From Acidobacteriota bacterium (GTDB lineage Bacteria; Acidobacteriota; Vicinamibacteria; Marinacidobacterales; Marinacidobacteraceae): 64,000 nt of DNA. Position 1 is the stretch's first letter, and the number at the start of each line of letters is the position of its first letter. Shown here piece by piece: positions 598 through 19,522 of this stretch. The position numbers and the translations under genes are program-made. The notes under the pieces are model-generated. The model was given only the letters and a program-made list of their open reading frames with translations. It was not told where the DNA came from and ran no database searches. The stretch spans positions 54,951-118,950 of the forward strand of contig JAJDUD010000056.1 in assembly GCA_022826825.1 (NCBI GenBank). Direction: 5' to 3'.

Positions 598-2139
598 CTA
601 CTCCGAACCGAGTGCGACGATCGGGTCGAGCCGTGCGGCGCGGCGGGCCGGACTCACGCCGGCGATCACCCCGGTGAGCAGCGCCACCACGAACGAGATC
701 AGCCCGGCCACCACCGAGACCTCGACCGCCAGCCCGAAGGAGCTCTCGACCACCACGGCGGCTACCGCTCCGATCACGACGCCGAGGACACCGCCCGCGG
801 CGCCGAGGAGCACCGATTCCGTGAGGAACTGACTGCCCACGTCTCCGGTCTGCGCTCCGACCGCCATCCGGAGTCCGATCTCGCGGATCCGCTCGCGTAC
901 GGAGAGCAGCATGACGTTCGAGATCCCGATCGCGCCCACGATCAGCGAAACGAGCGCGATGGCGAGCAGCAACGCCGACATGGTCCGGCTGGACCGCTCG
1001 AGGGTGGCCGCGAGCTGCCGCAGGGTGGTGCGTTCGAGGTTGGGAATGTTGCCGGCGAGCGTCTCGGCCACCTTCGGGTGAAGCCCCTTGCCGAGCACTT
1101 CCGACGCCTGGGTGGTGACGGTGAAATCGTCGGCCTGGGTCTCGCCGATCCCGTGCCGCTCGCGGAGCAGGTCGGTGATGGACCGCGACACTTCGGTGAC
1201 TCTTCCGGACGACGCCGCGGTGACGGTGATGGAGTTGAGGTTCGTGGCGTTGAGCAGCCGGTGGACGGCGGTGAAGGGTGTGTACACGGCGTCGAACTCG
1301 TCGTCACCGGGCGCGCCGGGATTCATCCAGTTGGTGCTCACCACGACGCCGACGACCTCGAAGGCCTGGTTCCAGATCGTGACCTCGCGTCCGACCGGAT
1401 CCTCGTTCTGGCCGAAGAGCTGATCCCGGGCGACGCTGCCGAGCACCACCACCTGGGAGGAGCGCCGCAGTTCGCCGGAACTGAAGAACCTCCCGTGCTG
1501 CATCGCGAAGGAACGGCGGATCTGCACGAGGTCCACGTCGGTCCCGTGAAGGCGCGTGAACCACCGGCGGTCGCCGGCGAAGACCCGGACGCTCTCATGG
1601 ATGCCCGAAGCGACGTGGGCCACTCCCGATAGCGACGCGATCGCCTCCGCGTCGTCGCTCGTCAGGGTGGCGGCGGCGCCGAGACCCGCGGCCGAGTCCC
1701 CGAGCCGCTCCGCGGCCGTCGGGTGGTCGTGCTTTTCCATCGGGTCGTTTTCGGGATGCGCCAGCGCGACCGGCTCGATCTTCCGGAGGAGCCGCTCCAG
1801 CGCACCTGGCGGAAGGGCCGCCCCGTGGCGCGTCGGTGCTTCGACGCCCCCGATCGGCCGCTCGCCGCGGGTCCGGTAGTTCCCGGCGGTGATCTCGATC
1901 ACGTTGAGACCCGCGGCGCGGACCTGGTCCCGGATCGCTCCCTGGGCGCCCCGCCCGAGGGCGATGGTGGCCATCAGCGCGGCCACCCCGAACGCGAGTC
2001 CGAGCAGCGTCAGCGCGGTCCGGAGCGGATAGCGGCGAAGGCTCTGGAAGGCGGTTTCGAGCGCCGTCCGCCGCTCGGCCGGCATCTCCCGCACCAGGTT
2101 CTGGATCTGGTCGCGGTTCAGGGGAATTCGCTTAAGCAC
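598..2139 (-). CDS. MacB-like ABC transporter permease
   Basis: PLRTALTLLGLAFGVAALM N-terminus, periplasmic core, C-terminal FtsX-like domain (NVMLLSVRERIREIGLRMAVGAQ; SPARRAARLDPIVALGSE); overlaps its ATPase gene. Confidence 0.87.
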   Translation of the reverse strand: MLKRIPLNRDQIQNLVREMPAERRTALETAFQSLRRYPLRTALTLLGLAFGVAALMATIALGRGAQGAIRDQVRAAGLNVIEITAGNYRTRGERPIGGVEAPTRHGAALPPGALERLLRKIEPVALAHPENDPMEKHDHPTAAERLGDSAAGLGAAATLTSDDAEAIASLSGVAHVASGIHESVRVFAGDRRWFTRLHGTDVDLVQIRRSFAMQHGRFFSSGELRRSSQVVVLGSVARDQLFGQNEDPVGREVTIWNQAFEVVGVVVSTNWMNPGAPGDDEFDAVYTPFTAVHRLLNATNLNSITVTAASSGRVTEVSRSITDLLRERHGIGETQADDFTVTTQASEVLGKGLHPKVAETLAGNIPNLERTTLRQLAATLERSSRTMSALLLAIALVSLIVGAIGISNVMLLSVRERIREIGLRMAVGAQTGDVGSQFLTESVLLGAAGGVLGVVIGAVAAVVVESSFGLAVEVSVVAGLISFVVALLTGVIAGVSPARRAARLDPIVALGSE

Positions 2140-2857
2140 CGGGGGTTGCTCCGTTACCCGAGATGGCCTCGTCCGTGAGAATGCGTCCGTCGCGCAGTTC
2201 GACGCTCCGCGAGGCGTACTGCGCCACCTGCCGGTCGTGGGTGATCATGATGACGGTCAGCCCGCGTTCGGAATTCAGGCGGGCGAACGTATCGAGGATT
2301 TCCCGTCCGGTGCGGGTGTCGAGGTTGCCGGTGGGTTCGTCCGCCAGCAGCAGGCCCGGCCGGTTGGCGAGCGCCCGGGCGATGGCGACCCGCTGCTGCT
2401 GCCCCCCCGAGAGCTGGCTCGGCGCGTGGGTGGCGCGGTCGGAGAGCCGGACGGCCTCCAGCGCTTCGGCCGCCTTCTGCCGCCGTTCTTCGCGGCCGGG
2501 TCGCTTCGCCCCGTAGAGCATGGGGAGTTCCACGTTCTCGAGGGCGCTCGCCCGCGCCAGCAGGTGGAAGCTCTGGAAGACGAACCCGATCTCCTCGTTG
2601 CGGATGCGCGCGCGCTCGTCGTTTCCGAGCCGGGCCACGTCGCGTCCCATGAGCCGGTATTCGCCGGAAGTCGGCTGATCGAGACAGCCGAGGATGTGCA
2701 TGAGGGTGCTCTTTCCGGAGCCCGACGGGCCGAGGACCGACAGGAACTCGCCCTTGTTCACCGAAAGCGTCAACCCCCGGAGGGCTTCCACCCGGTGGGT
2801 CTCGCTCAGGACGTAGGTCTTGACGAGATCACGGACCTCGATGGCGGCCAATGGCAA
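2132..2857 (-). CDS. ABC transporter ATP-binding protein (MacB/LolD type)
   Basis: Walker A GPSGSGKST, signature LSGGQQQRVAIARAL, Walker B GLLLADEPTGNLD. Confidence 0.93.
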   Translation of the reverse strand: MPLAAIEVRDLVKTYVLSETHRVEALRGLTLSVNKGEFLSVLGPSGSGKSTLMHILGCLDQPTSGEYRLMGRDVARLGNDERARIRNEEIGFVFQSFHLLARASALENVELPMLYGAKRPGREERRQKAAEALEAVRLSDRATHAPSQLSGGQQQRVAIARALANRPGLLLADEPTGNLDTRTGREILDTFARLNSERGLTVIMITHDRQVAQYASRSVELRDGRILTDEAISGNGATPGA

Positions 2858-2967: not shown

Positions 2968-4650
2968 TCAGTCCTCGTCCATCCCCGTCTCGGCCGGAGC
3001 ATCGGGGAGCAGTCCTGCGTAGGCATAGACGAAGGTCGCGATCGACTTCTCGGCCCCGGCCATCCCGTAGACCTCGCCAGCGCCCTCGATCACCCAGAAC
3101 TCGTTGGCCGCGTGCGCGCCGCCGCCGTGTCCGGCGGCTCCGCCGACGATCGGCATCGAGAGGTCGGTTCCGTCCGCGAAGTCCCCGTCCCGGCCGCTGA
3201 AGAGGTAGGCCGGCCAGTAGCCGCCGAGGATCGTTTCGCCCTCGATGGGATTCCGGTAGCGGATGCCGAAGATGTCGTAGGTGCGCAGCAGGGAGTGCGC
3301 CGCCCGGTTGTCATAGCTCGACTTCGACCACGGCACGTCGCCGATGATCGTCATCTCGACGTCCTCGTAGCCCTGCTCGTCCAGGTAATCCCGGATCTTC
3401 TGGACCATGTCCAGACCGTCCATGCTGGGGACGTAGCGCATGTTGTGCTTGGAGGTGATCCGGTTCGGCAGGATCGCGCCGGCGCCGCCCGGATACATGT
3501 TGCCGGCCCAGACGCCGTCCATGTTGAAGGAGATGCCGTACCGGGCGCTCTTCAGGTAGGTGAGCGGATCGTCGCTGATGAAGCGGGCGACGCCGATGTT
3601 CTCGGCGGCGATCGACATGTCGAGGTTCTCGGCGGCGCTCTGGAACATCGCCTCCTCGGCGTCGTTCAACGGGTCGGCGCCGTCGTAGAAGCCGGGAATC
3701 AGCACCCGGTTTCCGTCATCGGTAACCAGTGACGAGAGCATCTTCACGTGCCGGAGCGCCGGCGCGTCGGTGGAGCGCTTGTGCGCGCCGTGGATGTTGG
3801 AGGCCACCGGTCCCCGGCCCCAGCTCGCGCCGCTGGTGGTGAGCTCGATGTAGACGCAGCCCTCGGAGCCGCCGCCGATCCCGGCGGCGCCGGAGCGGGA
3901 CTGGGAGCCGAAGCGGTACATCGCATCCGCCTCGCGGAAGAGCTCCGGGTTCTCCCTGACGAACTGCCGCAGGCCGATGGACATCCGTTCCTCGTCGCCC
4001 TCGGCGATGAAGATCAGGTTCACCGGCATGGTCCCGGTGACTTCCAGGATGGAATGGAACGCGTTCCACTGCACCATCTGGGGGCCCTTGGAGTTCGTGG
4101 CGCCCCGGCCGATCATCACCTTCTTGAAGGGGCCGAACTCGGTGAACTCGCCGTCGAACGGCGGCAGCACCCAGGCCTCGGGCTGGGTGATGGGCATCGT
4201 GTCGTACATCCAGTAGATGAGCAGCGTGCGTTCCGCCCCGTAGTTGCAGTTCGCATAGACCACCGGGTTGCCGGGCTGTCCCCACTCGGTCATCGGGATC
4301 TCGTAGACCTGGGACTGTTGGCAGCCGAGCTGGTCGAAGAAGCCCTTGACCATCTGGGCGGACTCGGGGATGCCCTCGCCGGAGTTCGAGATGCTGGGCT
4401 GCTGGATCCAGCGGCGGAGGTTCATCACGTGTCCGTCCACGTTGTCGTCGATGTACTGGAACACCTCCTGGAGTTCCTCGGGAACCTGGGACAGGTCGGG
4501 GGCGATCTCGGTGTCGCCGTCAGCCCGGACGCCGAGCGCCTCGGTTGCGGGGGCCATGGGGTCCTCCGTCCCGGGCGCTCCACAGGCGAGCAGGCCGAGC
4601 CCGGAAACGAGGATCAGAAACAGGCCGAATCGGGTTGCCTTTCGCGTCAT
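2968..4650 (-). CDS. M20-like peptidase-fold lipoprotein, copy 1
   Basis: Start taken at MTRKATRFGLFLILVSGLGLLACGAPG (lipobox). M20-like blocks LLIYWMYDTMP, GRGATNSKGPQ, AEGDEERMS, GGGAHAANEFW. Same coding length (1683 bp) as copy 2. Confidence 0.82.
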   Translation of the reverse strand: MTRKATRFGLFLILVSGLGLLACGAPGTEDPMAPATEALGVRADGDTEIAPDLSQVPEELQEVFQYIDDNVDGHVMNLRRWIQQPSISNSGEGIPESAQMVKGFFDQLGCQQSQVYEIPMTEWGQPGNPVVYANCNYGAERTLLIYWMYDTMPITQPEAWVLPPFDGEFTEFGPFKKVMIGRGATNSKGPQMVQWNAFHSILEVTGTMPVNLIFIAEGDEERMSIGLRQFVRENPELFREADAMYRFGSQSRSGAAGIGGGSEGCVYIELTTSGASWGRGPVASNIHGAHKRSTDAPALRHVKMLSSLVTDDGNRVLIPGFYDGADPLNDAEEAMFQSAAENLDMSIAAENIGVARFISDDPLTYLKSARYGISFNMDGVWAGNMYPGGAGAILPNRITSKHNMRYVPSMDGLDMVQKIRDYLDEQGYEDVEMTIIGDVPWSKSSYDNRAAHSLLRTYDIFGIRYRNPIEGETILGGYWPAYLFSGRDGDFADGTDLSMPIVGGAAGHGGGAHAANEFWVIEGAGEVYGMAGAEKSIATFVYAYAGLLPDAPAETGMDED

Positions 4651-4806
4651 CGAAATCTCCTTCACGAGTCGAACGGAGCCTGGGCCGCACCCCTGCTTCG
4701 AGGGACGGCCAACCCCGGACGATATGTCCCGGCGCGCCGGCCTGTCAAAGGGCGAAGAGCGCCGGTCAGTTGCCGTGAGAATGCGGCCCAAGCAGCAGAA
4801 ACGGCC

Positions 4807-5064
4807 TGGAACGCCGACCTCCGGTCGGCACGCGGCCCGCAGGGCCGCAACGGCGCGCCGCCAATCCAGCCAGATGGCGTCGCCATCCCGCCCTCCGGGA
4901 GGAAGACCGATACGCCATCGCCCGCCGGGGGCGGGCGGTGCCGACCGGAGGCCAGTTCTCCCGGTGGGGGCCGGCGTGCCAAGCCGGCGGAACCATCTGG
5001 CGGATCCGTTCCGCGCCGCCTTGCGGCCCTGCGGGCCGCGTGCCGACCGGAGGTCGGCGTTCCA
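4807..5064. repeat. Intergenic inverted-repeat element with perfect 44-bp terminal arms
   Basis: 4807-4850 tggaacgccgacctccggtcggcacgcggcccgcagggccgcaa is the exact reverse complement of 5021-5064. Confidence 0.9.
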
Positions 5065-5147
5065 AGCCGGCGCGTCATCAGGCGGAGTGGAGGTCAGCCG
5101 GGTCTCTGCCCTCCAGTGACCTTCACCTCAGGCTGTTGACGCCCGCG

Positions 5148-6830
5148 CTATTCCTCGTCCATGCCGGTCTCGGCCGGGGTATCCGGAAGCAGTCCGGCGT
5201 AGGCGTAGAGGAAGGTCGCCACCGTCTTCTCGGCCCCGGCCATTCCGTAGACGTCGCCAGCGCCCTCGATGACCCAGAACTCGTTGGCGGCGTGGGAGCC
5301 GCCTCCGTGACCGCCGGCACCGCCGACGATCGGCATCGAGAGATCGGTTCCGTCGGCGAAGTCGCCGTCCCGGCCGCTGAAGAGGTAGGCGGGCCAGTAA
5401 CCGCCGAGGATGGTTTCGCCTTCGATGGGGTCCCGGTAAGGGATGCCGAAGATGTCGTAGGTGCGCAGCAGGGAGTGCGCCGCCCGGTTGTCGTAGCTGG
5501 ACTTCGACCACGGCACGTCGCCGATGATCGTCATCTCGACGTCCTCGTAGCCCTGCTCGTCCAAGTAGTCCCGGATCTTCTGCACCATTTCCAGACCGTC
5601 CATGCTGGGGACGTAGCGCATGTTGTGCTTGGAGGTGATCCGGTTCGGCAGGATCGCGCCGGCGCCGCCCGGGTACATGTTGCCGGCCCAGACGCCGTCC
5701 ATGTTGAAGGAAATCCCGTAGCGGGCGCTCTTCAGGTAGGTCAGGGGATCGTCGCTGATGAAACGGGCCACCCCGATGTTCTCGGCCGCGATGGCCATGT
5801 CGATGTTCGCGGCGGCGCTCTGGAACATCGCCTCCTCGGCGTCGTTCAACGGGTCCGCGCCGTCGTAGAAGCCGGGCACCAGCACCCGGTTGCCGTCGTC
5901 GGTGACCAGCGACGAGAGCATCTTCACGTGCCGCAGCGCCGGGGAGTCGACGGAACGCTTCCGGGATCCGTGGATGTTGGAGGCCACCGGGCCCCGGCCC
6001 CAGCTCGCGCCACTGGTGGTCAGTTCGATGTAGACGCAGCCCTCGGAGCCGCCGCCGATCCCGGCGGCGCCGGAGCGGGACTGCCGCCCGAAGCGGTACA
6101 TCGCCTCCGCCTCGCGGAAGAGATCCGGGTTCTCGCGGACGAACTGGCGCAGGCCGATGGACATCCGCTCCTCGTCGCCCTCGGCGACGAAGATCAGGTT
6201 CACCGGCATGGTCCCGGTGACTTCCAGGATGGAATGGAACGCGTTCCACTGCACCATCTGGGGACCCTTGGAGTTCGTGGCGCCCCGGCCGATCATCACC
6301 TTCTTGAACGGGCCGAACTCGCTGAACTCGCCGTCGAACGGCGGCAGCATCCAGGCCTCGGGCTGGGTGATCGGCATGGTGTCGTACATCCAGTAGATGA
6401 GCAGGGTGCGCTCTGCGCCGTAGTTGCAGTTCGCATAGACCACCGGGTTGCCGGGCTGCCCCCACTCGGTCATCGGGATCTCGTAGACCTGGGACTGCTG
6501 GCAGCCGAGCTGGTCGAAGAAGCCCTTGACCATCTGGGCGGACTCGGGGATGCCCTCCCCGGAGTTCGAGATGCTGGGCTGCTGGATCCAGCGGCGGAGG
6601 TTCATCACGTGCCCGTCCACGTTGTCGTCGATGTACTGGAAGACCTGCTGGAGTTCTTCGGGGATCTGCGACAGGTCCGGGGCGATCTCGGTGTCGCCGT
6701 CGGCCCGGACGCCGAGCGCCTCGGTGGTGGAGGCCATCGGGTCCTCCATCTCGGGCGCTCCACAGGCGAGCACGCCGAGCCCGGCGGCGAGGATCACGAA
6801 CAGGACGAATCGGGTTGCCTTCTGGGTCAT
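5148..6830 (-). CDS. M20-like peptidase-fold lipoprotein, copy 2
   Basis: Start MTQKATRFVLFVILAAGLGVLACGAPE (lipobox); near-identical to 2968-4650 over its length. Confidence 0.82.
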   Translation of the reverse strand: MTQKATRFVLFVILAAGLGVLACGAPEMEDPMASTTEALGVRADGDTEIAPDLSQIPEELQQVFQYIDDNVDGHVMNLRRWIQQPSISNSGEGIPESAQMVKGFFDQLGCQQSQVYEIPMTEWGQPGNPVVYANCNYGAERTLLIYWMYDTMPITQPEAWMLPPFDGEFSEFGPFKKVMIGRGATNSKGPQMVQWNAFHSILEVTGTMPVNLIFVAEGDEERMSIGLRQFVRENPDLFREAEAMYRFGRQSRSGAAGIGGGSEGCVYIELTTSGASWGRGPVASNIHGSRKRSVDSPALRHVKMLSSLVTDDGNRVLVPGFYDGADPLNDAEEAMFQSAAANIDMAIAAENIGVARFISDDPLTYLKSARYGISFNMDGVWAGNMYPGGAGAILPNRITSKHNMRYVPSMDGLEMVQKIRDYLDEQGYEDVEMTIIGDVPWSKSSYDNRAAHSLLRTYDIFGIPYRDPIEGETILGGYWPAYLFSGRDGDFADGTDLSMPIVGGAGGHGGGSHAANEFWVIEGAGDVYGMAGAEKTVATFLYAYAGLLPDTPAETGMDEE

Positions 6831-6987: not shown

Positions 6988-8286
6988 GCATCCGGGAATT
7001 GCCCCGCATACGCTTCCCGAATCCGCCGTTCCCCCGCCCGCTTCCGTCGCCTGCCGCTGGTTTCGGCCGTGCTCCTGTGCTGGGCGGCGTGCGACCCGGC
7101 GCCGCCGCCTGCGACGGATCCCGTTCCACGGACGGCCGACGAACTCGCCGGCCGGTACGTGCGGCTCGCCTTCGCTCTCCACGAGCGCGACCCGCTCTTT
7201 CTGGACCTCGTGTTCATGGAGGTCCCTTCGGAGACTCTCGACCTCGAACTCCGGGAGATCGCCGAGCGGGCCGCGCGCCTCGCGGAAAGCTCCCGCGACA
7301 TGGCGCGGACCGGGGACGAGTTCCGGGTTCGCCGCATCGAGGCGTCGCTCCGGGCAATGGCCTTTCGCGCCCGTTCGTTGCTCGGGGACCGCCGCCCGGT
7401 GGCCGAGGAGCTCCGGGAGGTCTTCGGGCTCTCCTGGACGGATCTCGAGGTGGACACCGACCGCCTCCATTTCCGCGTGGACCGCTCGCTCGCCGGCGTG
7501 GCTCCCCTCAAGGTCCGCGTGCGCCGCTACTACGAGCGCTCGGACGTGCCCGGGGAGTCGGCGGAAGTCCGGTTGCGCGAGGCGCTGGTCGCGTGCCGGA
7601 GCCTCGCGCTGGGCGAATCAGCCGCGATGGAACTTGCACCGCTCGGCATCCGCTGGATGAAACCGGCGGAGGCGCTGGCGCTTCCGACCGGCCCCTCACC
7701 GTTCTACCGCTATTCCGGGGAAGGGGCGGGCACGCTGTGGCTTCCCCTGGGTCTTTCGCTCAGGTCCTCGGAGTTGCACCGGCTGGCGTGTCACGAAGGG
7801 ATCCCCGGCCATCACCTGCAGGCGATCGTCGCCGACCGGGAGTTCCAGGCCACCGGATGGCCCGAACTCGGGATCGTCCCGCTCTACGGTCCCCGGACCG
7901 CGGTGTTCGAGGGCCTGGCGGCAATGGTCGAGGGGCTTGCGCCGTCCGCTCCCGCCGACGAATCGCTCCGCGCCCTCGAGCCCGTGGTAGCGCGGGTGCT
8001 CGCCGGGTACCTGGACGGCGAACTGACCCGTCTGGAGGCGCTGCGCGCGCTCGATTTCGAGGCCCTCGTCCCCGATCCCCACGGCCTCCTCGCCCATGCC
8101 GACCGCTTCGGCGGATACGCTCTCGTCCGTCCCTCCGTGGACCCCGCGTTTCGCGGCGCCCTGGAGAGCCTCATCGATCCCCGGCTCTCACCCGACGACC
8201 TTCTCTCCGGGATCGTGAAAGCGGTCCGCGAAGCCATGAGTCCGGCGGAACTCATTCACCTCCTTTCCCCTTCTCTCCATAATTGA
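6988..8286 (+). CDS. DUF885-like putative metallo-lipoprotein; start codon uncertain
   Basis: Motif CHEGIPGHHLQAIVADREFQATGW followed by FEGLAAMVEGLA; signal/lipobox-like RLPLVSAVLLCWAACDP. No convincing ATG/GTG just upstream of the signal peptide. Confidence 0.65.
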   Translation, partial: ASGNCPAYASRIRRSPARFRRLPLVSAVLLCWAACDPAPPPATDPVPRTADELAGRYVRLAFALHERDPLFLDLVFMEVPSETLDLELREIAERAARLAESSRDMARTGDEFRVRRIEASLRAMAFRARSLLGDRRPVAEELREVFGLSWTDLEVDTDRLHFRVDRSLAGVAPLKVRVRRYYERSDVPGESAEVRLREALVACRSLALGESAAMELAPLGIRWMKPAEALALPTGPSPFYRYSGEGAGTLWLPLGLSLRSSELHRLACHEGIPGHHLQAIVADREFQATGWPELGIVPLYGPRTAVFEGLAAMVEGLAPSAPADESLRALEPVVARVLAGYLDGELTRLEALRALDFEALVPDPHGLLAHADRFGGYALVRPSVDPAFRGALESLIDPRLSPDDLLSGIVKAVREAMSPAELIHLLSPSLHN

Positions 8287-8309
8287 GATGGTTGGTTGAC
8301 GCCTTGCTG

Positions 8310-8834
8310 ATGCGCCCGGCACGCCTCTGCGTGCTCCTTGCCCTCGCCGCCTGCGGAGCTCCCGAAGAAGAACCGCCCTCCGACGGGATGGAGGGCATGC
8401 CGGGGATGGGCGGGATGATGATGGCGCACGGCGATCACGCTCCCCGGTACGGGGGCTACGTCTTCATGCACGGCGATCTCCATTTCGAGGTCGTGCTGAC
8501 CGCCGAAGGCGAGCACCGCATCTATTTCTCCGACGCCATGCGGAGCGAGCTGCCGGCCGCGGTGGCCGAGGACGTGCGGGTCACCATTCGCCGCCTCGGT
8601 GAGGCGGGCGAGGAACTCGAACCGCTGCGGCCGCGGATCGACGAGTTCGGCGAAGCCTGGATCGCGAGCAGCGATCCCATCGAAACCGAGGACACGGTGG
8701 CGATCGTCTACTTCCGGTTCGAGGGCTCGCCGTACGAGATCGAGGTTCCGTTCATCATGGAGCCGCCGACCGTGGATCCGCACACCGGGCTGCCGCTCCC
8801 GTCTCCGCCACCGGACGCTGAAGAGCCCCGGTAA
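8310..8834 (+). CDS. Met/His-rich lipoprotein, hypothetical
   Basis: MRPARLCVLLALAACGAPEEEPPSDGMEGMPGMGGMMMAHGDHAPRYGGYVFMHGDLHFEVVL; lipobox plus metal-binding-like Met/His cluster. Confidence 0.65.
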   Translation: MRPARLCVLLALAACGAPEEEPPSDGMEGMPGMGGMMMAHGDHAPRYGGYVFMHGDLHFEVVLTAEGEHRIYFSDAMRSELPAAVAEDVRVTIRRLGEAGEELEPLRPRIDEFGEAWIASSDPIETEDTVAIVYFRFEGSPYEIEVPFIMEPPTVDPHTGLPLPSPPPDAEEPR

Positions 8835-8866: not shown

Positions 8867-10213
8867 CTACTCGGAGCGCAGGGCGACGATCGGGTCCAGC
8901 CTCGACGCGCGGCGGGCCGGATACCAGCCGAAGAAGACTCCGACGCCCATCGCGAGCACGGCGGCCCCGGCGATCGCCACCGCCGGGATCAGGGTCCGCC
9001 ACCCGAACATGGCTTCGACGAGCGTCGAGGAAAGCCCACCCAGCGCGACCCCGAAGAGCCCGCCCAACGCGGCGAGACCGATCGCCTCGGCCAGGAACTG
9101 CCACATCACGTCGCGGCGCCGCGCCCCGACCGCGAGCCGCAGCCCGATTTCCCGGGTGCGCTCCGTGACCGCGAGCAGCATGACGTTCATGATCCCGACG
9201 CCGCCCACGATCAGGGAGACGCCCGCGAGCGCGCCGAGCAGGAGGGTCATCGTCGAGGTCGCGCGGCTCAGGGTGCCCACCATCTCCTCGGAGGTGACCT
9301 CGTCCAGCTTGGGCATGGAGGCGAGCACGAACGCGGCGGCGGTCGTGTAGAGCCCCTGCGTCAGCGCCTCGGTGGCCTGGGTGCGGACGACGAAGTCGTC
9401 CGGCAGGCGCGTGCCGCGCCGGAAGGAATGCGGCGCGGTCGCTTCCGCGGGTGGCGCCGCGCGGGTCAGCTCGTGCCGCTCGCGCAGCAGGTTGGCCACG
9501 TCCCGGGCCACCCGCGAGGCGTCGCCGGCGCGCTCGGTGGCGATCGCGACGGCCTGCAGGTAGTCGCGCCCCACGAGATCGGCGAGCAGCGTGTGAGGGA
9601 CCATCGCGGCCTCGGCGAGCTTGCGGTCGGAAGACTGGTAGATCCCCACCACCTCGAATTCCCGCTCCCGGATCACCACCGTGCGGCCCACCCCGGAGCG
9701 CCCGGGGAAGAGCTCGGCCTCCACCGGCGAAGAGAGCAGCACGACGGCTCGACCGTTCTCGACGTCGCCGGCGCTGAAGTTCTCGCCGTCCTGGAACCGC
9801 ACCTGGTAGATCTGCGGTCCCTCGGCCGAAACCCCGTGAATCTGCGCGAAGGAGTCGCCGGTGTCGGCGAGCAGGGCCGTCCGCTCTTCCACGACCGGGC
9901 TCACCATCGCCACGTCCGTGATGTCCCGGATCGCCTCGGCGTCGCCCGGCGTCAGCGTGTCCGCGCGGCCGAAACCGGAAGGGATGTTCACCGCGTCGCC
10001 GCCCCGGATGTAGTTGCCGGCCCGCACGACGATGATGTTGGTCCCGGCGGAACGCACATCGTCGGCGACGGCCGCCCGGGCGCCGGAGCCGAGCGCGGCC
10101 ATGGTGATGACCGAAGCGACGCCGATCACCAGGCCGATCAGGGCGAGCGCGGTCCGCAGGGGATTCGCGGTGAGGGCGGCGCCGGCGGTGCGGAACGGGA
10201 GCGGGGCTTCCAC
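8867..10213 (-). CDS. MacB-like ABC transporter permease (no adjacent ATPase)
   Basis: ANPLRTALALIGLVIGVASVITMAALGSGARAAV; IMNVMLLAVTERTREIGLRLAVGARRRDV; PARRASRLDPIVALRSE. Confidence 0.87.
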   Translation of the reverse strand: MEAPLPFRTAGAALTANPLRTALALIGLVIGVASVITMAALGSGARAAVADDVRSAGTNIIVVRAGNYIRGGDAVNIPSGFGRADTLTPGDAEAIRDITDVAMVSPVVEERTALLADTGDSFAQIHGVSAEGPQIYQVRFQDGENFSAGDVENGRAVVLLSSPVEAELFPGRSGVGRTVVIREREFEVVGIYQSSDRKLAEAAMVPHTLLADLVGRDYLQAVAIATERAGDASRVARDVANLLRERHELTRAAPPAEATAPHSFRRGTRLPDDFVVRTQATEALTQGLYTTAAAFVLASMPKLDEVTSEEMVGTLSRATSTMTLLLGALAGVSLIVGGVGIMNVMLLAVTERTREIGLRLAVGARRRDVMWQFLAEAIGLAALGGLFGVALGGLSSTLVEAMFGWRTLIPAVAIAGAAVLAMGVGVFFGWYPARRASRLDPIVALRSE

Positions 10214-12833: not shown

Positions 12834-13187
12834 GCCGTTATTTTACGGCGTTTTTTGCTGTCATTCTGGCAAACAGTGAGGCATCGATCGCCGCCCTCCC
12901 GGCTACGCATCGGGAAGAAGACGAGCGCTGACGCGGAGCCATGCAAGGTTCCCCGGCTTGACAGAACCCTACGAGATTCAAGAGAATTGACGGTTCGGCT
13001 CCAATAAATCGAATATTGGGACGAAGTTTCTGAATTCCGGCACTCGCAGGTGCCGGAGCAATCATCCCATTTAGAACGACTTAGGCGGAGATAGACCCCG
13101 GCCGCGGCTTCTGGTCCGACCGTTGCTCTTTCCGGCTGACATCTTTCTCCTTTCCATGCTCCCGACCCCATAGGAGGACCAAGCAGC

Positions 13188-16118
13188 ATGAGAAAACTCA
13201 TTCTCTTTACGCTGCTGGTGGCGTGGCCGAGTGCGGCCCTGTCCCAGCAGATCTACGGACGCCTCGAGGGCGCCGCGAACGACGCGCAGGGCCTCGTCCT
13301 CCCCGGAGTGACGGTGACCCTGGAGTCCGTCGAACTCGTGGCACCCCGCGTCGCGACCACTGACGTGGACGGTTCCTACCGGTTCGCGCAGCTCGTCGGC
13401 GGCAGCTACAACATGACCTTCGAACTCGGCGGTTTCCAGACCGTCGTCTTCGAGGACATCACCGTGGTTGGCGGTTCGACCTTCGAGATCAACGCCACCA
13501 TGGACATCGCGACCGTCGCCGAGACCGTCACCGTGACCGGTGAGTCTCCGGTGGTGGACGTGAAGACCACCGGTGTGTCGGCGACCTTCGACACCACCCA
13601 GCTCGAAGACGTCCCGTCGGCCACCGACATGTGGGCGGTCCTCCAGCAGAGCCCGGGCGTGCGGATGCGCGGCTACGACGTGGGCGGGTCCCACAAGAGC
13701 CAGCAGTCCGGCTACGAGACCTTCGGGGTCCGGGGACAGAACCGGATCATCAACGACGGCGTGAACACCACCGAGGGAACCGGCGGCGCGGGGGGGTACT
13801 ACGACTTCTACGCGATCGGCGAGTTCCAGGTGTCCGCGCAGGGCGCCGACGTGGAGTCGAACACCCCGGGCGCGACGGTGAACGCGGTGTGGAAGAGCGG
13901 CGGTAACGACTTCTCCGGGACCGAGCACTTCGCCTACGAGCCGCCGGACATGATCGCCGACAACCTGCCCTCGGAGCTCGTGAGCCGCGGCGGGACGACG
14001 GCCCCGGTGATCGAGTTCTACGAGGCGCACATCGACCTCGGCGGCCCGATCGTGCGGGACAAGGCGTGGTTCTACGCCGCCTACAACCGGTTCGTCATCG
14101 ACCGGATCATCTCGGGAGTTCCCGAGGATCAGGCGACCGACCTGGGCGACTTCGACATGTTCACGGTGAAGGCGAACTGGCAGATCACCGACCGGGACCA
14201 GTTCATCACCTTCCACCACTGGTCACTGAAGCAGAAGCCCTTCCGGGGCCTCTCGGCAGTCCGCCCGGCGGAGTCCATCCTGGCGCAGGACTCGTGGTCC
14301 TGGCTGCACAAGGCCGAGTGGCAGCGGGTGTGGAGCGACCGTCTCTACAGCAACATCCAGGTGAACCACTTCGGCTTCGGTTGGCCGATGACCCCGGCGG
14401 TGGACCCGGCGACGAAGCCGGCGCGGATTGACCTCGGCACCGGCCAGTGGTCGGGCGCGGGCTGGCGGCCGTTCACCTTCAACCGCTGGAAGCCGCACAC
14501 GACGGGTCAGTTCAACTACTACCTGCCGACCGAGAGCGGCAGCCACGACCTGAAGTTCGGCTGGGACTGGCAGATTGACGAGCGCCAGTTCGGCTGGAAC
14601 GCCAACTCGGGCGCCGTCCGTTACCGGGACGACAGCACGAAGGACCCGCCGAGTCCCATGAACGTGGACCAGATCGAGTTCCACAGCTTCCCGAACTTCA
14701 ACTACGACCGGAACACCCACCTGGATCTGTACGCCCAGGACGTGTGGACGATCAACGACCGTCTGACGATCAACGCCGGTTTCCGTTTCGGGAGTCAGCG
14801 GATGGGCTATCTGGGGTCCAACAACACTCCGGGTGGACCTTGTGACGCAGCGCTCGGCTGCCTCCGTGAGATCGCCGACGTGGACGCGAACGTCCACGGC
14901 GCCCTGCCGCTGCTCTTCGGCCAGGGAGGAGAAGTCCCGGGCGAAGACAACCTCATCAGTTGGTGGAACATCGCCCCGCGCGTTGGCTTTACCTATGACC
15001 TCACCGGCGAGGGCCGCTCCGTCCTGAAGGGCTATTTCGGGCGCTACTACCACAACATGAACACCGGGATTCCGGCTGCGAACCCGGGCGGCAACAAGTT
15101 CGTCCGCTACGAGTTCCTGGACCAGAACATGAACGGCCTGTTTGACGGCGTGAACGAGCTCGGGACCCGTCTCGCGGGAAGCACCGGCGCCGGCCTCGGG
15201 ATCGAGCGTTCCGCCCCGGTCGGCGCGGATATCGATCAGGGCATCGTCCAGCCGTACGTTGACGAGATCAGCGCTTCGGCCGAACACCAGATCGGTTCCG
15301 ACATCGGAGTCCGGTTCTCGTTCGTCCACAAGCGCCAGACGGGCGCCTGGGGCAACCTGAACATCGCGCGCGTCGGAAGACTGACGAACAGCAAGACGAT
15401 TGCCTGTCCGGCATCGTGCGGACCGGGCGCGAACGAGTACGGTACCGATCCCGGCTACGGCGGCACGGGGCTGACGGTCAACGACCTGCCGGACGGGGCT
15501 CCCCTGAGTGAGAACCTCTACACGAACGCGCCGGAGAACGAGACGAAGTTCAACTGGAACACGCTTTCGTTCGGCGTCAACCGCCGGTTCCGCAACAACT
15601 TCTTCTGGAACGCCTACTTCGACTACCAGTGGCGGCACGAGGGCCGGACTCCGGGCCAGTCCACGAGCCCGCTCACCACGGATCCGGTCGGCGTCGGCTG
15701 GGGCCTTCAGTACGGCTCCATTCCGCTGATCCAGGACCTGAGCAACTGGCAGCTCAAGAGCGCCGGCCGTTACGTGATGCCATATGACGTCGGCACCGCC
15801 GCGACCCTGCGGCTGGTCAGCGGCTTCAACTGGGCGCCCATGGTTCGGGTCCCGGTGGGCAACGTCGGCAGTCAGACGATCTTCCTGGACAACATGGGCA
15901 ACCGGCGTTCGGACAACGTCGTGATCCTGGACTTCCGGGTTGACAAGGGCGTCAGCCTCGGCGACACCGCGGAGATCGAGTTCATGCTTGACCTCTTCAA
16001 CGCGCTGAACGGCGCCGCGGAGACGAACTTCTTCATGAGCGCCGGCGGCAACTACCTGAAGACCATCGAGTGGATCCAGGGCCGCACCATCGGCCTCAGC
16101 GCCCGCCTGACCTTCTAG
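13188..16118 (+). CDS. Oar-like TonB-dependent receptor with carboxypeptidase-regulatory-like N-domain, paralogue 1
   Basis: Signal peptide, GRLEGAANDAQGLVLPGVTVTLES...DVDGSYRFAQL, plug SPGVRMRGYDVGGSHKSQQSGYETFGVR, C-terminal GRTIGLSARLTF. Confidence 0.9.
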   Translation: MRKLILFTLLVAWPSAALSQQIYGRLEGAANDAQGLVLPGVTVTLESVELVAPRVATTDVDGSYRFAQLVGGSYNMTFELGGFQTVVFEDITVVGGSTFEINATMDIATVAETVTVTGESPVVDVKTTGVSATFDTTQLEDVPSATDMWAVLQQSPGVRMRGYDVGGSHKSQQSGYETFGVRGQNRIINDGVNTTEGTGGAGGYYDFYAIGEFQVSAQGADVESNTPGATVNAVWKSGGNDFSGTEHFAYEPPDMIADNLPSELVSRGGTTAPVIEFYEAHIDLGGPIVRDKAWFYAAYNRFVIDRIISGVPEDQATDLGDFDMFTVKANWQITDRDQFITFHHWSLKQKPFRGLSAVRPAESILAQDSWSWLHKAEWQRVWSDRLYSNIQVNHFGFGWPMTPAVDPATKPARIDLGTGQWSGAGWRPFTFNRWKPHTTGQFNYYLPTESGSHDLKFGWDWQIDERQFGWNANSGAVRYRDDSTKDPPSPMNVDQIEFHSFPNFNYDRNTHLDLYAQDVWTINDRLTINAGFRFGSQRMGYLGSNNTPGGPCDAALGCLREIADVDANVHGALPLLFGQGGEVPGEDNLISWWNIAPRVGFTYDLTGEGRSVLKGYFGRYYHNMNTGIPAANPGGNKFVRYEFLDQNMNGLFDGVNELGTRLAGSTGAGLGIERSAPVGADIDQGIVQPYVDEISASAEHQIGSDIGVRFSFVHKRQTGAWGNLNIARVGRLTNSKTIACPASCGPGANEYGTDPGYGGTGLTVNDLPDGAPLSENLYTNAPENETKFNWNTLSFGVNRRFRNNFFWNAYFDYQWRHEGRTPGQSTSPLTTDPVGVGWGLQYGSIPLIQDLSNWQLKSAGRYVMPYDVGTAATLRLVSGFNWAPMVRVPVGNVGSQTIFLDNMGNRRSDNVVILDFRVDKGVSLGDTAEIEFMLDLFNALNGAAETNFFMSAGGNYLKTIEWIQGRTIGLSARLTF

Positions 16119-16184: not shown

Positions 16185-16597
16185 ACGGCGCCGATCAGGG
16201 CCGTACAAGCGGCCGTCACTCGCGCACGCGGGCGAACCGTGCCGCCAGTCGCGCCGCCGCCTCAAATGGGAGAGGCGTCCATCGCCGTGAAAGCCAGTTG
16301 GTCCAGCGCGCCAACGGTCTTTGAGAATTCAAGAAACGCTGCTCTTCGGACCATGAAACCGAAAGTCCGAGTCTGTTTTCTGGATGCCATTCGGCACAGG
16401 CGGTTGTTCCTGTCCAACGGGACGAAGCCGGAGATGGCTTCTTCGGATTCGGACATCCAGTGGAATCAAGCTAAGCCGCCCATTTAGAGGGACTTAGCCA
16501 GCAGGGCGCCCCCGTGCGCGCCCCTTGGTCCCGCCGTTGCTGTTCCGGCCAGCATGTTTCCACTTCCATGTTCCGGATCCCCAAGGAGGACAACGGC

Positions 16598-19522
16598 ATG
16601 AAAAGAACCCTTCTCTTTACGCTGCTGGTGGCATGGCCGAGTGCGGCCCTGTCCCAGCAGCTCTACGGACGCCTTGAGGGCGCCGCCACCGACGCGCAGG
16701 GCCTCGCCCTTCCCGGAGTGACGGTCACCCTGGAGTCCGACGAACTCGTCGCTTCGCGGACCGCGACCACCGACGTGGACGGCTCGTACCGCTTCGCGCA
16801 GCTCGTCGGCGGCAGCTACAACCTCACGTTCGAACTCACCGGTTTCCAGACGGTGGTCTTCGAGGAAGTCATCGTCGTCGGCGGTTCGACCTTCGAGGTG
16901 AACGCACCGATGGACATCGCGACCGTCGCCGAGACCGTGACGGTCACGGGCGAGTCGCCGGTGGTGGACGTCAAGTCCACCGGCGTCTCGGCGACCTTCG
17001 ACACCACCCAGCTCGAGGACGTCCCGTCGGCCACCGACATGTGGGCGGTCCTCCAGCAGAGCCCGGGGGTACGGATGCGCGGCTACGACGTGGGCGGGTC
17101 CCACAAGAGCCAGCAGTCCGGCTACGAGACCTTCGGCGTGCGCAACCAGAACCGGATCATCAACGACGGCGTGAACACCACCGAGGGGACCGGCGGCGCG
17201 GGGGGTTACTACGACTTCTACGCGATCGGCGAGTTCCAGGTGTCCGCGCAGGGCGCCGACGTGGAAATGTCCACGCCCGGCGCGCAGGTGAACGCCGTGT
17301 GGAAGAGCGGCGGCAACGACTTCTCCGGCACGGAGCACTTCGCCTACGAGCCGCCCGAGTGGATCAACGACAACATCACCTCCGATCTCGAGAGCCGGGG
17401 CGGAACGTCGGCGCCGGTGATCGAGTTCTACGAAGCCCATCTCGATCTGGGCGGCCCCATCGTCCGCGACAAGGCGTGGTTCTACGCCGCCTACAACCGG
17501 TTCGTCATCGACCGGATCATCTCCGGACAGCCAGAATCGGAAGGCACGGACCTCGGCGACTTCGACATGTTCACCGTGAAGGCGAACTGGCAGATCACCG
17601 ACCGGGACCAGTTCATCACCTTCCACCACTGGTCGCTGAAGCAGAAACCCTTCCGGGGCCTTTCCTCGAACCGCCCGGCGGAATCCATCCTGGCGCAGGA
17701 CTCCTGGACCTGGCTCCACAAGGCCGAGTGGCAGCGGGTGTGGAGCGACCGTCTCTACAGCAACATCCAGGTGAACCACTTCGGCTTCGGCTGGCCGATG
17801 ACCCCGGCGGTGGATCCGGCGACGAGCCCGCCGCGGCTCGACGAGGGGTCGAACATCTGGTCCGGCGCCGGCTGGAGGCCCTTCACCTTCAACCGCTGGA
17901 AACCGCATTCGACCGGCCAGTTCAACTACTACCTCCCCACGGCGAGCGGCAGCCACGACTTCAAGTTCGGCTGGGACTGGCAGATTGACGAGCGGCAGTT
18001 CGGCTGGAACGCCAATTCGGGCGCCGTGCGCTACCTGGACAACAGCAGCCAGGATCCGCCGCGGCCGCTGAACGTGGACGAGATCCGCTTCGAGAGCTAT
18101 CCGAACTTCAACTACGACCGGAACACGCACTACGACTTCTACCTGCAGGACGTGTGGACCATCAACGACCGGCTCACGCTGAACGCCGGCGTGCGCATCG
18201 GTTCTCAGTACATGGCCTACCTGGAATCGAACAACGTGCCCGGCGGTCCCTGCGACGCAGCGCTCGGCTGCCTGCGCGAGATCGCCGACGTGGACCCGAA
18301 CGTCGCGGCGGCGCTGCCCCTGCTGTTCGGTCAGGGCGGGCAGGTGCCGGGCGCGGACGTCATCCGTTGGTGGAACGTCGCGCCGCGCGCCGGTTTCACC
18401 TTCGACGTCACCGGCGAGGGCCGCTCCGTCCTGAAGGGCTACTGGGGCCGCTACTACAACAACATGAACACGGGCATGCCGAACTCGAACCCCGGCGGCA
18501 ACAAGAACGTCGTGTACAAGTTCCTCGATCAGAATCAGAACGGCCTCTTCGACGGGGTGCACGAGCTTGGGGACCGGGTCAGCGGGTCCACCGGCGCCGG
18601 GCTGGGCATCGAGCGCACCGCCCCGGTAGGGACGGCGGTGGACCCGAACCTGACGGTCCCTCACGTGGACGAGTTCAGCCTGTCCGGCGAGCATCAGATC
18701 GGCAGCGACCTGGGCGTCCGGGCGTCGGTCGTGCACAAGCGGCAGACGGGGCATGCCTACGGTCTCGGAACCGCGGCGCCGCTGAACGTGGCTCGCGTCG
18801 GGACGCTCACCAACGTGGTGCAGGTTCCCTGCCCGGCGGCCTGCGAATCGGCCGGATTCGGGGGAACGACGGTGACGGTGAACGGACTGCCCGACGGGGC
18901 CCCGACCAGCCAGGAGCTGATCGCCAACACGCCGGAAGACGAGAGCCAGTGGAACTGGACGACGGTGTCGGTCGGCGTCAACCGCCGCTTCCGCGACAAC
19001 TTCTTCTGGAACGCCTATTTCGACTACCAGTGGCGCCACGAGGCGCGGCGCAGCAACAACGAGTCCACGAGCCCGCTGACGACGGATCCGACGAACGTGG
19101 ACTGGAACTACTCCTACGGTCCCATCCCGCTCGTCCAGGACCTGACGAACTGGCAGGGCAAGACCGCCGGCCGCTACGTGTTCCCCTACGACATCGGCGC
19201 CGCCGCGACCTTGCGCGTCCTGAGCGGCTTCAACTGGTCCCCGATCCTGTCCATCGCGGTTCCGAACGCCGGCTCGCAGCGCATCTTCCTGGACAACCTC
19301 GACAACCGCCGTTCCGATACGGTGACCATCCTCGATCTCCGGGCCGACAAGTCCTTCTCGCTCGACGGCCGGGCGGAGATTCAGGTCATGGTTGACGTGT
19401 TCAACGCGCTGAACAACGCCACCGAAACGAACTTCAACATGCGGGTGGGCAGCGCTTACCGCGAACCCATCGAGTGGATCCAGGGCCGCACCATCGGCCT
19501 GAGCGCCCGCCTGACCTTCTAG
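16598..19522 (+). CDS. Oar-like TonB-dependent receptor, paralogue 2
   Basis: Start MKRTLLFTLLVAWPSAALSQQLYGRLEGAATDAQG; same plug motif; C-terminal GRTIGLSARLTF; strongly similar to 13188-16118. Confidence 0.9.
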   Translation: MKRTLLFTLLVAWPSAALSQQLYGRLEGAATDAQGLALPGVTVTLESDELVASRTATTDVDGSYRFAQLVGGSYNLTFELTGFQTVVFEEVIVVGGSTFEVNAPMDIATVAETVTVTGESPVVDVKSTGVSATFDTTQLEDVPSATDMWAVLQQSPGVRMRGYDVGGSHKSQQSGYETFGVRNQNRIINDGVNTTEGTGGAGGYYDFYAIGEFQVSAQGADVEMSTPGAQVNAVWKSGGNDFSGTEHFAYEPPEWINDNITSDLESRGGTSAPVIEFYEAHLDLGGPIVRDKAWFYAAYNRFVIDRIISGQPESEGTDLGDFDMFTVKANWQITDRDQFITFHHWSLKQKPFRGLSSNRPAESILAQDSWTWLHKAEWQRVWSDRLYSNIQVNHFGFGWPMTPAVDPATSPPRLDEGSNIWSGAGWRPFTFNRWKPHSTGQFNYYLPTASGSHDFKFGWDWQIDERQFGWNANSGAVRYLDNSSQDPPRPLNVDEIRFESYPNFNYDRNTHYDFYLQDVWTINDRLTLNAGVRIGSQYMAYLESNNVPGGPCDAALGCLREIADVDPNVAAALPLLFGQGGQVPGADVIRWWNVAPRAGFTFDVTGEGRSVLKGYWGRYYNNMNTGMPNSNPGGNKNVVYKFLDQNQNGLFDGVHELGDRVSGSTGAGLGIERTAPVGTAVDPNLTVPHVDEFSLSGEHQIGSDLGVRASVVHKRQTGHAYGLGTAAPLNVARVGTLTNVVQVPCPAACESAGFGGTTVTVNGLPDGAPTSQELIANTPEDESQWNWTTVSVGVNRRFRDNFFWNAYFDYQWRHEARRSNNESTSPLTTDPTNVDWNYSYGPIPLVQDLTNWQGKTAGRYVFPYDIGAAATLRVLSGFNWSPILSIAVPNAGSQRIFLDNLDNRRSDTVTILDLRADKSFSLDGRAEIQVMVDVFNALNNATETNFNMRVGSAYREPIEWIQGRTIGLSARLTF

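Follow-up and report, generated by a model that had tools for sequence, protein, structure and literature searches.

Why should a genome keep two tandem copies of a peptidase-like gene in which most of the residues that hold the catalytic metals have been replaced? The question is raised by a 64,000-nucleotide stretch of DNA from an Acidobacteriota bacterium (contig JAJDUD010000056.1, positions 54,951 to 118,950; hereafter, the window), which carries on its minus strand two genes for M20-fold lipoproteins, copy 1 at 2968..4650 and copy 2 at 5148..6830. Throughout the family, three of the five metal ligands are missing, yet its proteins are annotated as M20 peptidases. The evidence assembled here suggests neither an ordinary peptidase nor a gene in decay, but an undescribed transporter-linked cell-envelope machine. 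Our tentative answer, held with nearly even but not full even confidence, is that the M20-like pair would form the periplasmic, lipid-anchored arm of a seemingly undescribed MacB-type (type VII) ATP-binding cassette (ABC) system.

Each copy is a 1683-bp open reading frame of 560 codons plus the stop, with zero internal stops, as reported in a preliminary description of the window made from the sequence alone. That description called the copies near-identical; they are closely alike, but the wording is too strong for identities of 93.4% at the protein and 92.6% at the DNA level. A search of the window for the pattern TAYTGGATGTAYGAY gave exactly two occurrences, against 0.00 expected by chance. 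Both window copies are under purifying selection, with 0.033 nonsynonymous (dN) and 0.249 synonymous (dS) substitutions per site between them (dN/dS 0.13), and the corresponding copies in close relatives show dN/dS values of 0.06-0.12; the suggestion that two copies are being maintained is borne out. Because window copy 1 is nearest to copy 1 of the related loci L006 and L008, and window copy 2 to their copy 2, the duplication predates the L006/L008 species. The two copies of L007 are unusually similar (dS 0.091), as if partly homogenised. Tandem copies are frequent among family members (Sphingomonas natans has four, Solimonas marina three), which makes the duplication as such unremarkable. 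A third copy, 79% identical, lies on the same contig about 34 kb away, outside the window (L003; G000:C55:22487-24139), where it adjoins purD/purE genes without an ABC unit, and copies of this type occupy the syntenic position in related genomes (L011-L016, L026). The window copies carry a lipobox-like LLAC or VLAC, of which Cys23 is the probable lipidation cysteine; it is present in 49 of 50 aligned sequences (alignment A1, mean column identity 60%), and a strict lipobox is found in 57 of 87 relatives.

Alignment to M20 profiles, structure prediction and a search for homologues sharing the substituted signature had been proposed as checks on the metal centre, and the results support an M20 fold with the substitutions described. 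The Pfam M20 profile (PF01546) matches the two copies at 35.0 and 33.5 bits (cut-off 24.6), and none of the NCBIfam M20 models reaches its cut-off on them. The nearest solved structures by sequence are Sso-CP2 (4mmo), the pneumococcal M20 peptidase 2pok and carnosinases; a Foldseek search of the Protein Data Bank with an AlphaFold2 model of copy 1 (mean predicted local distance difference test score 86.6, predicted template modelling score 0.86) returned the same top matches, with 4mmo and CN2 at 9.4e-31. HMMER alignments to four M20 structures (4mmo, 2pok, CN1 and CN2) place Met148 on the column of the metal-binding His, Asn186 on that of the bridging Asp, and Glu220-Glu221 on the pair formed by the catalytic base and the ligand Glu, with His513 falling on the last ligand His in the 4mmo alignment, which extends through the C-terminus. 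The Asp of the HxD motif is retained although the metal His is replaced. When the family is aligned with canonical M20s from its own phylum, Phe247-Gly248 or a deletion stands at the 'SD' ligand column, the site-2 Asp/Glu itself being matched by Gly248 or a gap, so that the third ligand is lost as well. The same substitutions are found in copy 2. These results agree with the His-to-Met and Asp-to-Asn changes and the loss of the S-D region that had been read from the motifs; the Glu-Glu pair and the C-terminal His are likewise retained in both copies, but in copy 2 the latter stands in GSHAANE rather than in GAHAANE as described. The family thus has the M20 profile and fold, the Glu-Glu pair and the C-terminal His, and lacks the HxD His, the bridging Asp and the site-2 Asp/Glu of two-metal M20 enzymes. 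As read from these alignments, zinc site 2 is dismantled, and the predicted ligands of site 1 are retained as Asn186 (in place of Asp), Glu221 and His513.

A motif-based scan of genome contigs, with IYWMYDTM among its patterns, yielded 69 loci, and ligands were counted over 88 sequences from Acidobacteriota and Pseudomonadota. The metal-His column holds Met in 79 sequences, Gln in eight and a gap in one, and the bridging-Asp column is Asn in all 88. Glu220-Glu221 and the dimer-domain His287 are each retained in 88 of 88, and His513 is present in all 84 sequences that extend that far. Since IYWMYDTM could bias the scan towards the Met form, we also carried out a protein-only search of 396 Acidobacteriota genomes; members with >50% identity were found in 16, and those that were read carry the same motifs, which rules out scan bias as the cause of the pattern. 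The family is present in 13 of the 14 genomes of the window's order. Among 289 Alphaproteobacteria and 274 Gammaproteobacteria sampled, a close member was found only in the genome used as the centre of each sample, and each sample gave one more, distant match; for this reason, the family is regarded as sporadic in Pseudomonadota. Local decay and sequencing error can be dismissed, the substitutions being fixed in independent genomes of two phyla. An ordinary two-zinc M20 peptidase that draws on other ligand residues and merely neighbours unrelated ABC genes would fit the Pfam match above cut-off and the carnosinase-like fold, and the family does contain further invariant residues (His74, His301, His402 and Asp219). 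We nevertheless consider it very unlikely, given that the ligand columns are clearly located by both profile and structure-anchored alignments, that the third-ligand loop is deleted in some members, and that two phyla share the conserved gene neighbourhood, overlapping genes included.

The substitutions extend to an older clade of the same phylum (clade B), which shares 30-35% identity over nearly the full length and has the same Met and Asn, with Glu-Glu and His retained (for instance, YFMYDVKQ, GAVNQKGP, EGEEEIG and AHAPDEY). In a 58-protein tree, the canonical M20s from this phylum are placed outside, and support is 100/100 for the ABC-linked clade A and 99/95 for A plus B; clade B alone is unresolved (64/55), and the tree tool flags long branches and odd composition in L145, L150 and L163. 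Most simply, the Met/Asn change would have arisen before the split between the two clades. Further out, L145 and L163 carry Asn in place of the metal His and Glu-Gln in place of Glu-Glu.

What, then, are these proteins kept for? The strongest clue to function, absent from the preliminary description, is their linkage to a MacB-type ABC unit. On the minus strand of the window, the order is copy 2, copy 1, ATPase and permease 1, with permease 2 further upstream. The MacB/LolD-type ABC ATPase (2132..2857, minus strand; PF00005, 119 bits) is encoded 110 bp downstream of copy 1, its best NCBIfam matches being MacB and LolD, both under their cut-offs, and its stop is overlapped by 8 bp by the start of the first MacB_PCD/FtsX permease (598..2139, minus strand; PF12704, 113 bits; PF02687, 68.6 bits). 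The second permease of this type (8867..10213, minus strand; PF12704, 111 bits; PF02687, 69.4 bits) lies upstream of the M20 pair, an arrangement repeated in L006-L008 and L010; a DUF885-like and a His-rich gene are located on the other strand between permease 2 and copy 2. The joint presence of genes for a MacB_PCD/FtsX permease and a LolD/MacB-type ATPase is as expected of a type VII ABC system. In two phyla, the ATPase directly follows the M20-like gene on the same strand at 42 of the 58 loci that extend far enough to be judged, and between one and three MacB_PCD/FtsX permeases come after it. Some genomes, among them those of Granulicella and Sulfopaludibacter, show a 4-base overlap between the stop of the M20-like gene and the start of the ATPase gene, a usual sign of translational coupling. 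By contrast, none of 20 clade B loci has a MacB permease or a DUF885-like neighbour (Fisher p = 3.7e-9 for clade A versus clade B, which serves as a guide only, the sequences being related and not independent). No adaptor-like cluster was seen among the widely shared neighbours, although a search with MacA-adaptor profiles was not made. Because of this gene order, we regard the M20-like lipoprotein as a partner of the ABC unit, and a physical partnership between the two is very probable.

A mechanism can be sketched by analogy with type VII ABC units, which work in the periplasm and whose function is set by a partner protein, in one case a hydrolase (PMC12646458). Here, the mechanical work in the periplasm would fall to the ABC unit, made up of the ATPase and two or three MacB_PCD/FtsX permeases. 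Handling of the substrate would be the task of its partner, the M20-fold lipoprotein, a role comparable to that of EnvC with FtsEX or of TesA with YbbAP. In the lipoprotein, the ancestral two-zinc centre would have been rebuilt through loss of the site-2 ligands (the His and the third Asp/Glu), with Glu221 and His513, and Asn186 in place of the bridging Asp, making one metal site beside the base Glu220 and the dimer-domain His287. One metal would be bound there, and a peptide-like amide presented by the transporter would be hydrolysed or otherwise handled, perhaps in cooperation with the neighbouring HExxH protein described below. Asn186, Glu221 and His513 correspond to Asp112, Glu145 and His355 of the M20 enzyme ArgE, where these three residues make up one of the zinc sites and the Asp also serves the other (PMC11270798), and in M28, a family of the same clan as M20, the two-site layout is reduced to one zinc in glutaminyl cyclases (PMC7522609). 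A literature search on 5-nitroanthranilate aminohydrolase as a further mono-metal precedent yielded nothing usable. The invariance of the base and of two ligands leads us to favour a single-metal centre over one devoid of metal; of all the steps in the argument, this one is the least secure, and we lean just slightly towards one bound metal rather than none. If so, the protein is probably a single-metal hydrolase, for which we infer both the activity and the nature of the substrate.

The main rival to such a centre is a metal-free pseudoenzyme, in which the lipoprotein would use its M20 fold solely for binding or as an adaptor in the ABC system, with the retained Glu, His and Arg residues forming a binding pocket, much as FtsEX works with the LytM domain of EnvC, which is inactive. 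We regard this as a credible possibility of secondary rank: three of the five ligands are lost in every member, two relatives that lie beside peptide ABC importers (Natronosalvus L170 and Bosea L171) lack nearly all of them, and there are known cases of type VII ABC units whose peptidase-domain partners are inactive; however, the invariance of Glu220, Glu221 and His513 in clade A and their retention in clade B amount to more constraint than a plain pocket should need. The term pseudoenzyme had also been put forward in the preliminary description; the ligand losses behind it are real, but the invariant base, ligand Glu and C-terminal His fit a surviving single site at least as well. The broader suggestion of a different metal centre or a binding function proves well founded, the substitutions being fixed across a large family.

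Several observations weigh against a single-metal lipoprotein acting as the arm of an ABC system. Sixteen testable loci have no adjacent ATPase, about half of them being second paralogues of the third-copy type at the purD/purE locus, and MacB-type units are common in Acidobacteriota. Furthermore, Asn is a weaker metal ligand than Asp and site 1 may also be empty, and the Natronosalvus and Bosea relatives have lost more ligands yet are kept, indicating that the fold can persist without metal.

Other genes recur in the neighbourhood, as counted over 70 loci, many of them short. The DUF885-like protein (7051..8286, plus strand; start uncertain, frame open from 6487) contains HEGIPGHH and is a predicted HExxH metalloprotein, with a weak match to PF05960 (22.2 bits, cut-off 32.4); it is encoded near the M20-like gene in 43 of the 70 loci, with the conserved motif CHEGYPGHH. 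The small His-rich (lipo)protein (8283..8834, plus strand), found in 28 loci, carries the motif HGDH..(H)GG...M.GD.H.E, has no Pfam or NCBIfam match, and is invariant at His49, His67 and Glu69 (alignment A2). Its AlphaFold2 model is a beta-sandwich, for which the copper/silver protein CrdA is the first fold match and FetP, P19, FtrA and HftA appear within the top 50; none of these passes E 0.001, and they are kept only as a lead. TonB-type receptors are present in 21 of the 70 loci. In the window, a CarboxypepD_reg/outer-membrane beta-barrel receptor (13140..16115, plus strand; PF25183, PF13620) lies about 3 kb beyond permease 2 and is a possible member only, such receptors adjoining the operon in other genomes; a second one (16475-19519) follows in tandem.

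These neighbours could instead point to a metal-handling envelope system for copper or iron, in which the His-rich protein would carry the metal, its transfer would be aided by the ABC unit, in the manner of FetBCD alongside FetMP/P19, and the M20-like protein would bind the metal or a metal-peptide complex through a non-zinc centre. Such a system would accommodate the CrdA-led fold matches, the invariant His and Glu residues, the TonB receptors and the presence of CopC and CopD beside separate M20 copies in Acidobacteriaceae, and a comparable set of genes occurs in the fet cluster, where an ATPase and two permeases whose substrate is unknown accompany a small metal protein of the periplasm (PMC10783030). 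We find it improbable, however, as the fold matches fall short of the threshold and involve a common fold, the His-rich gene is confined to a minority of the loci (many of them short), and Met148 varies to Gln and is hence not a required ligand. Returning to the ABC-linked M20 lipoprotein, its most elaborate form would be a new type VII ABC family, in which a rebuilt single-metal centre (possibly not zinc) acts with the TonB receptor, the HExxH protein and the His-rich metal carrier on peptide-like or metal-peptide substrates; as a complete scheme, this is speculative and rather unlikely.

More distant M20 relatives show further ligand losses, such as Lys or Ala for the bridging Asp and Glu-Leu for Glu-Glu. 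A plasmid-borne Cytobacillus relative has Met/Asn with Glu-Glu and His retained, and still more ligands are lost in the plasmid-borne Natronosalvus L170 (4977-6458) and Bosea L171 (4983-6446); all three are encoded beside or near peptide-type ABC importers. The separate M20-like copies of Acidobacteriaceae adjoin CopC in opposite transcription at L126 (11422-12708), L140 (139-495) and L143 (13607-14922), with CopD also present in two of the three loci. In Bryocella elongata (L052/L124-L125), an M20-like copy shares a nonribosomal peptide synthetase region with genes for a P450 and an acyl-AMP ligase-like protein; a general link to natural-product clusters was rejected, the synthetase query having matched only this locus. 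A viral fold library was uninformative, returning merely an insect-virus aminoacylase-like protein and phage M28 peptidases.

Collectively, the locus appears to combine an M20 homologue that falls outside the two-metal definition with a type VII ABC unit, giving the latter a putative partner of unexpected fold. Seen in its conserved operon, what looked like an odd peptidase becomes a partnership open to testing; if true, the type VII ABC superfamily, in which function is defined by the partner, would gain a periplasmic partner of a new kind. Clades A and B, together with their canonical neighbours, also offer a natural series in which to study how one site of a two-metal hydrolase can be lost while the protein is still kept. 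No publication linking M20 proteins to MacB units was found, in a literature search poor in subscription journals.

Among known systems, the M20 carnosinase/Sso-CP2-type dipeptidases (PF01546; 4mmo, 2zof, 3dlj) share with the window family the fold, the lengths of the catalytic and dimer domains, the Glu-Glu pair, the C-terminal His, the dimer-domain His and a conserved lid Arg; the window family differs in having Met or Gln for the metal His and Asn for the bridging Asp, in the loss of the third Asp/Glu, and in being a secreted lipoprotein coupled to an ABC unit by gene order. Single-zinc relatives in M28 generally retain the bridging Asp. Two of them, the glutaminyl cyclases and GPAA1 (PMC7522609), resemble our family in having lost the His and the third ligand of one site while retaining the Glu and His of the other, whereas the family described here belongs to M20 and has Asn at the bridging position. 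FtsEX-EnvC and YbbAP-TesA (PMC7668044, PMC12646458) similarly pair a MacB/FtsX-type ABC unit with a periplasmic partner of hydrolase fold, but here the putative partner, proposed from gene order, is a lipoprotein of M20 fold that is often encoded by two to four genes in tandem. FetMP-FetABCDEF/P19 (PMC10783030) also has an ATPase, two homologous permeases of unclear substrate and a small periplasmic beta-sandwich metal protein (a weak fold match in our case); no FTR1 permease or thioredoxins are recognised here, and no M20-like protein is found there. Finally, MacAB-TolC has the same MacB_PCD/FtsX permeases and MacB-like ATPase, whereas in the window family the ATPase and the permeases are encoded by separate genes, with two or three permeases per unit.

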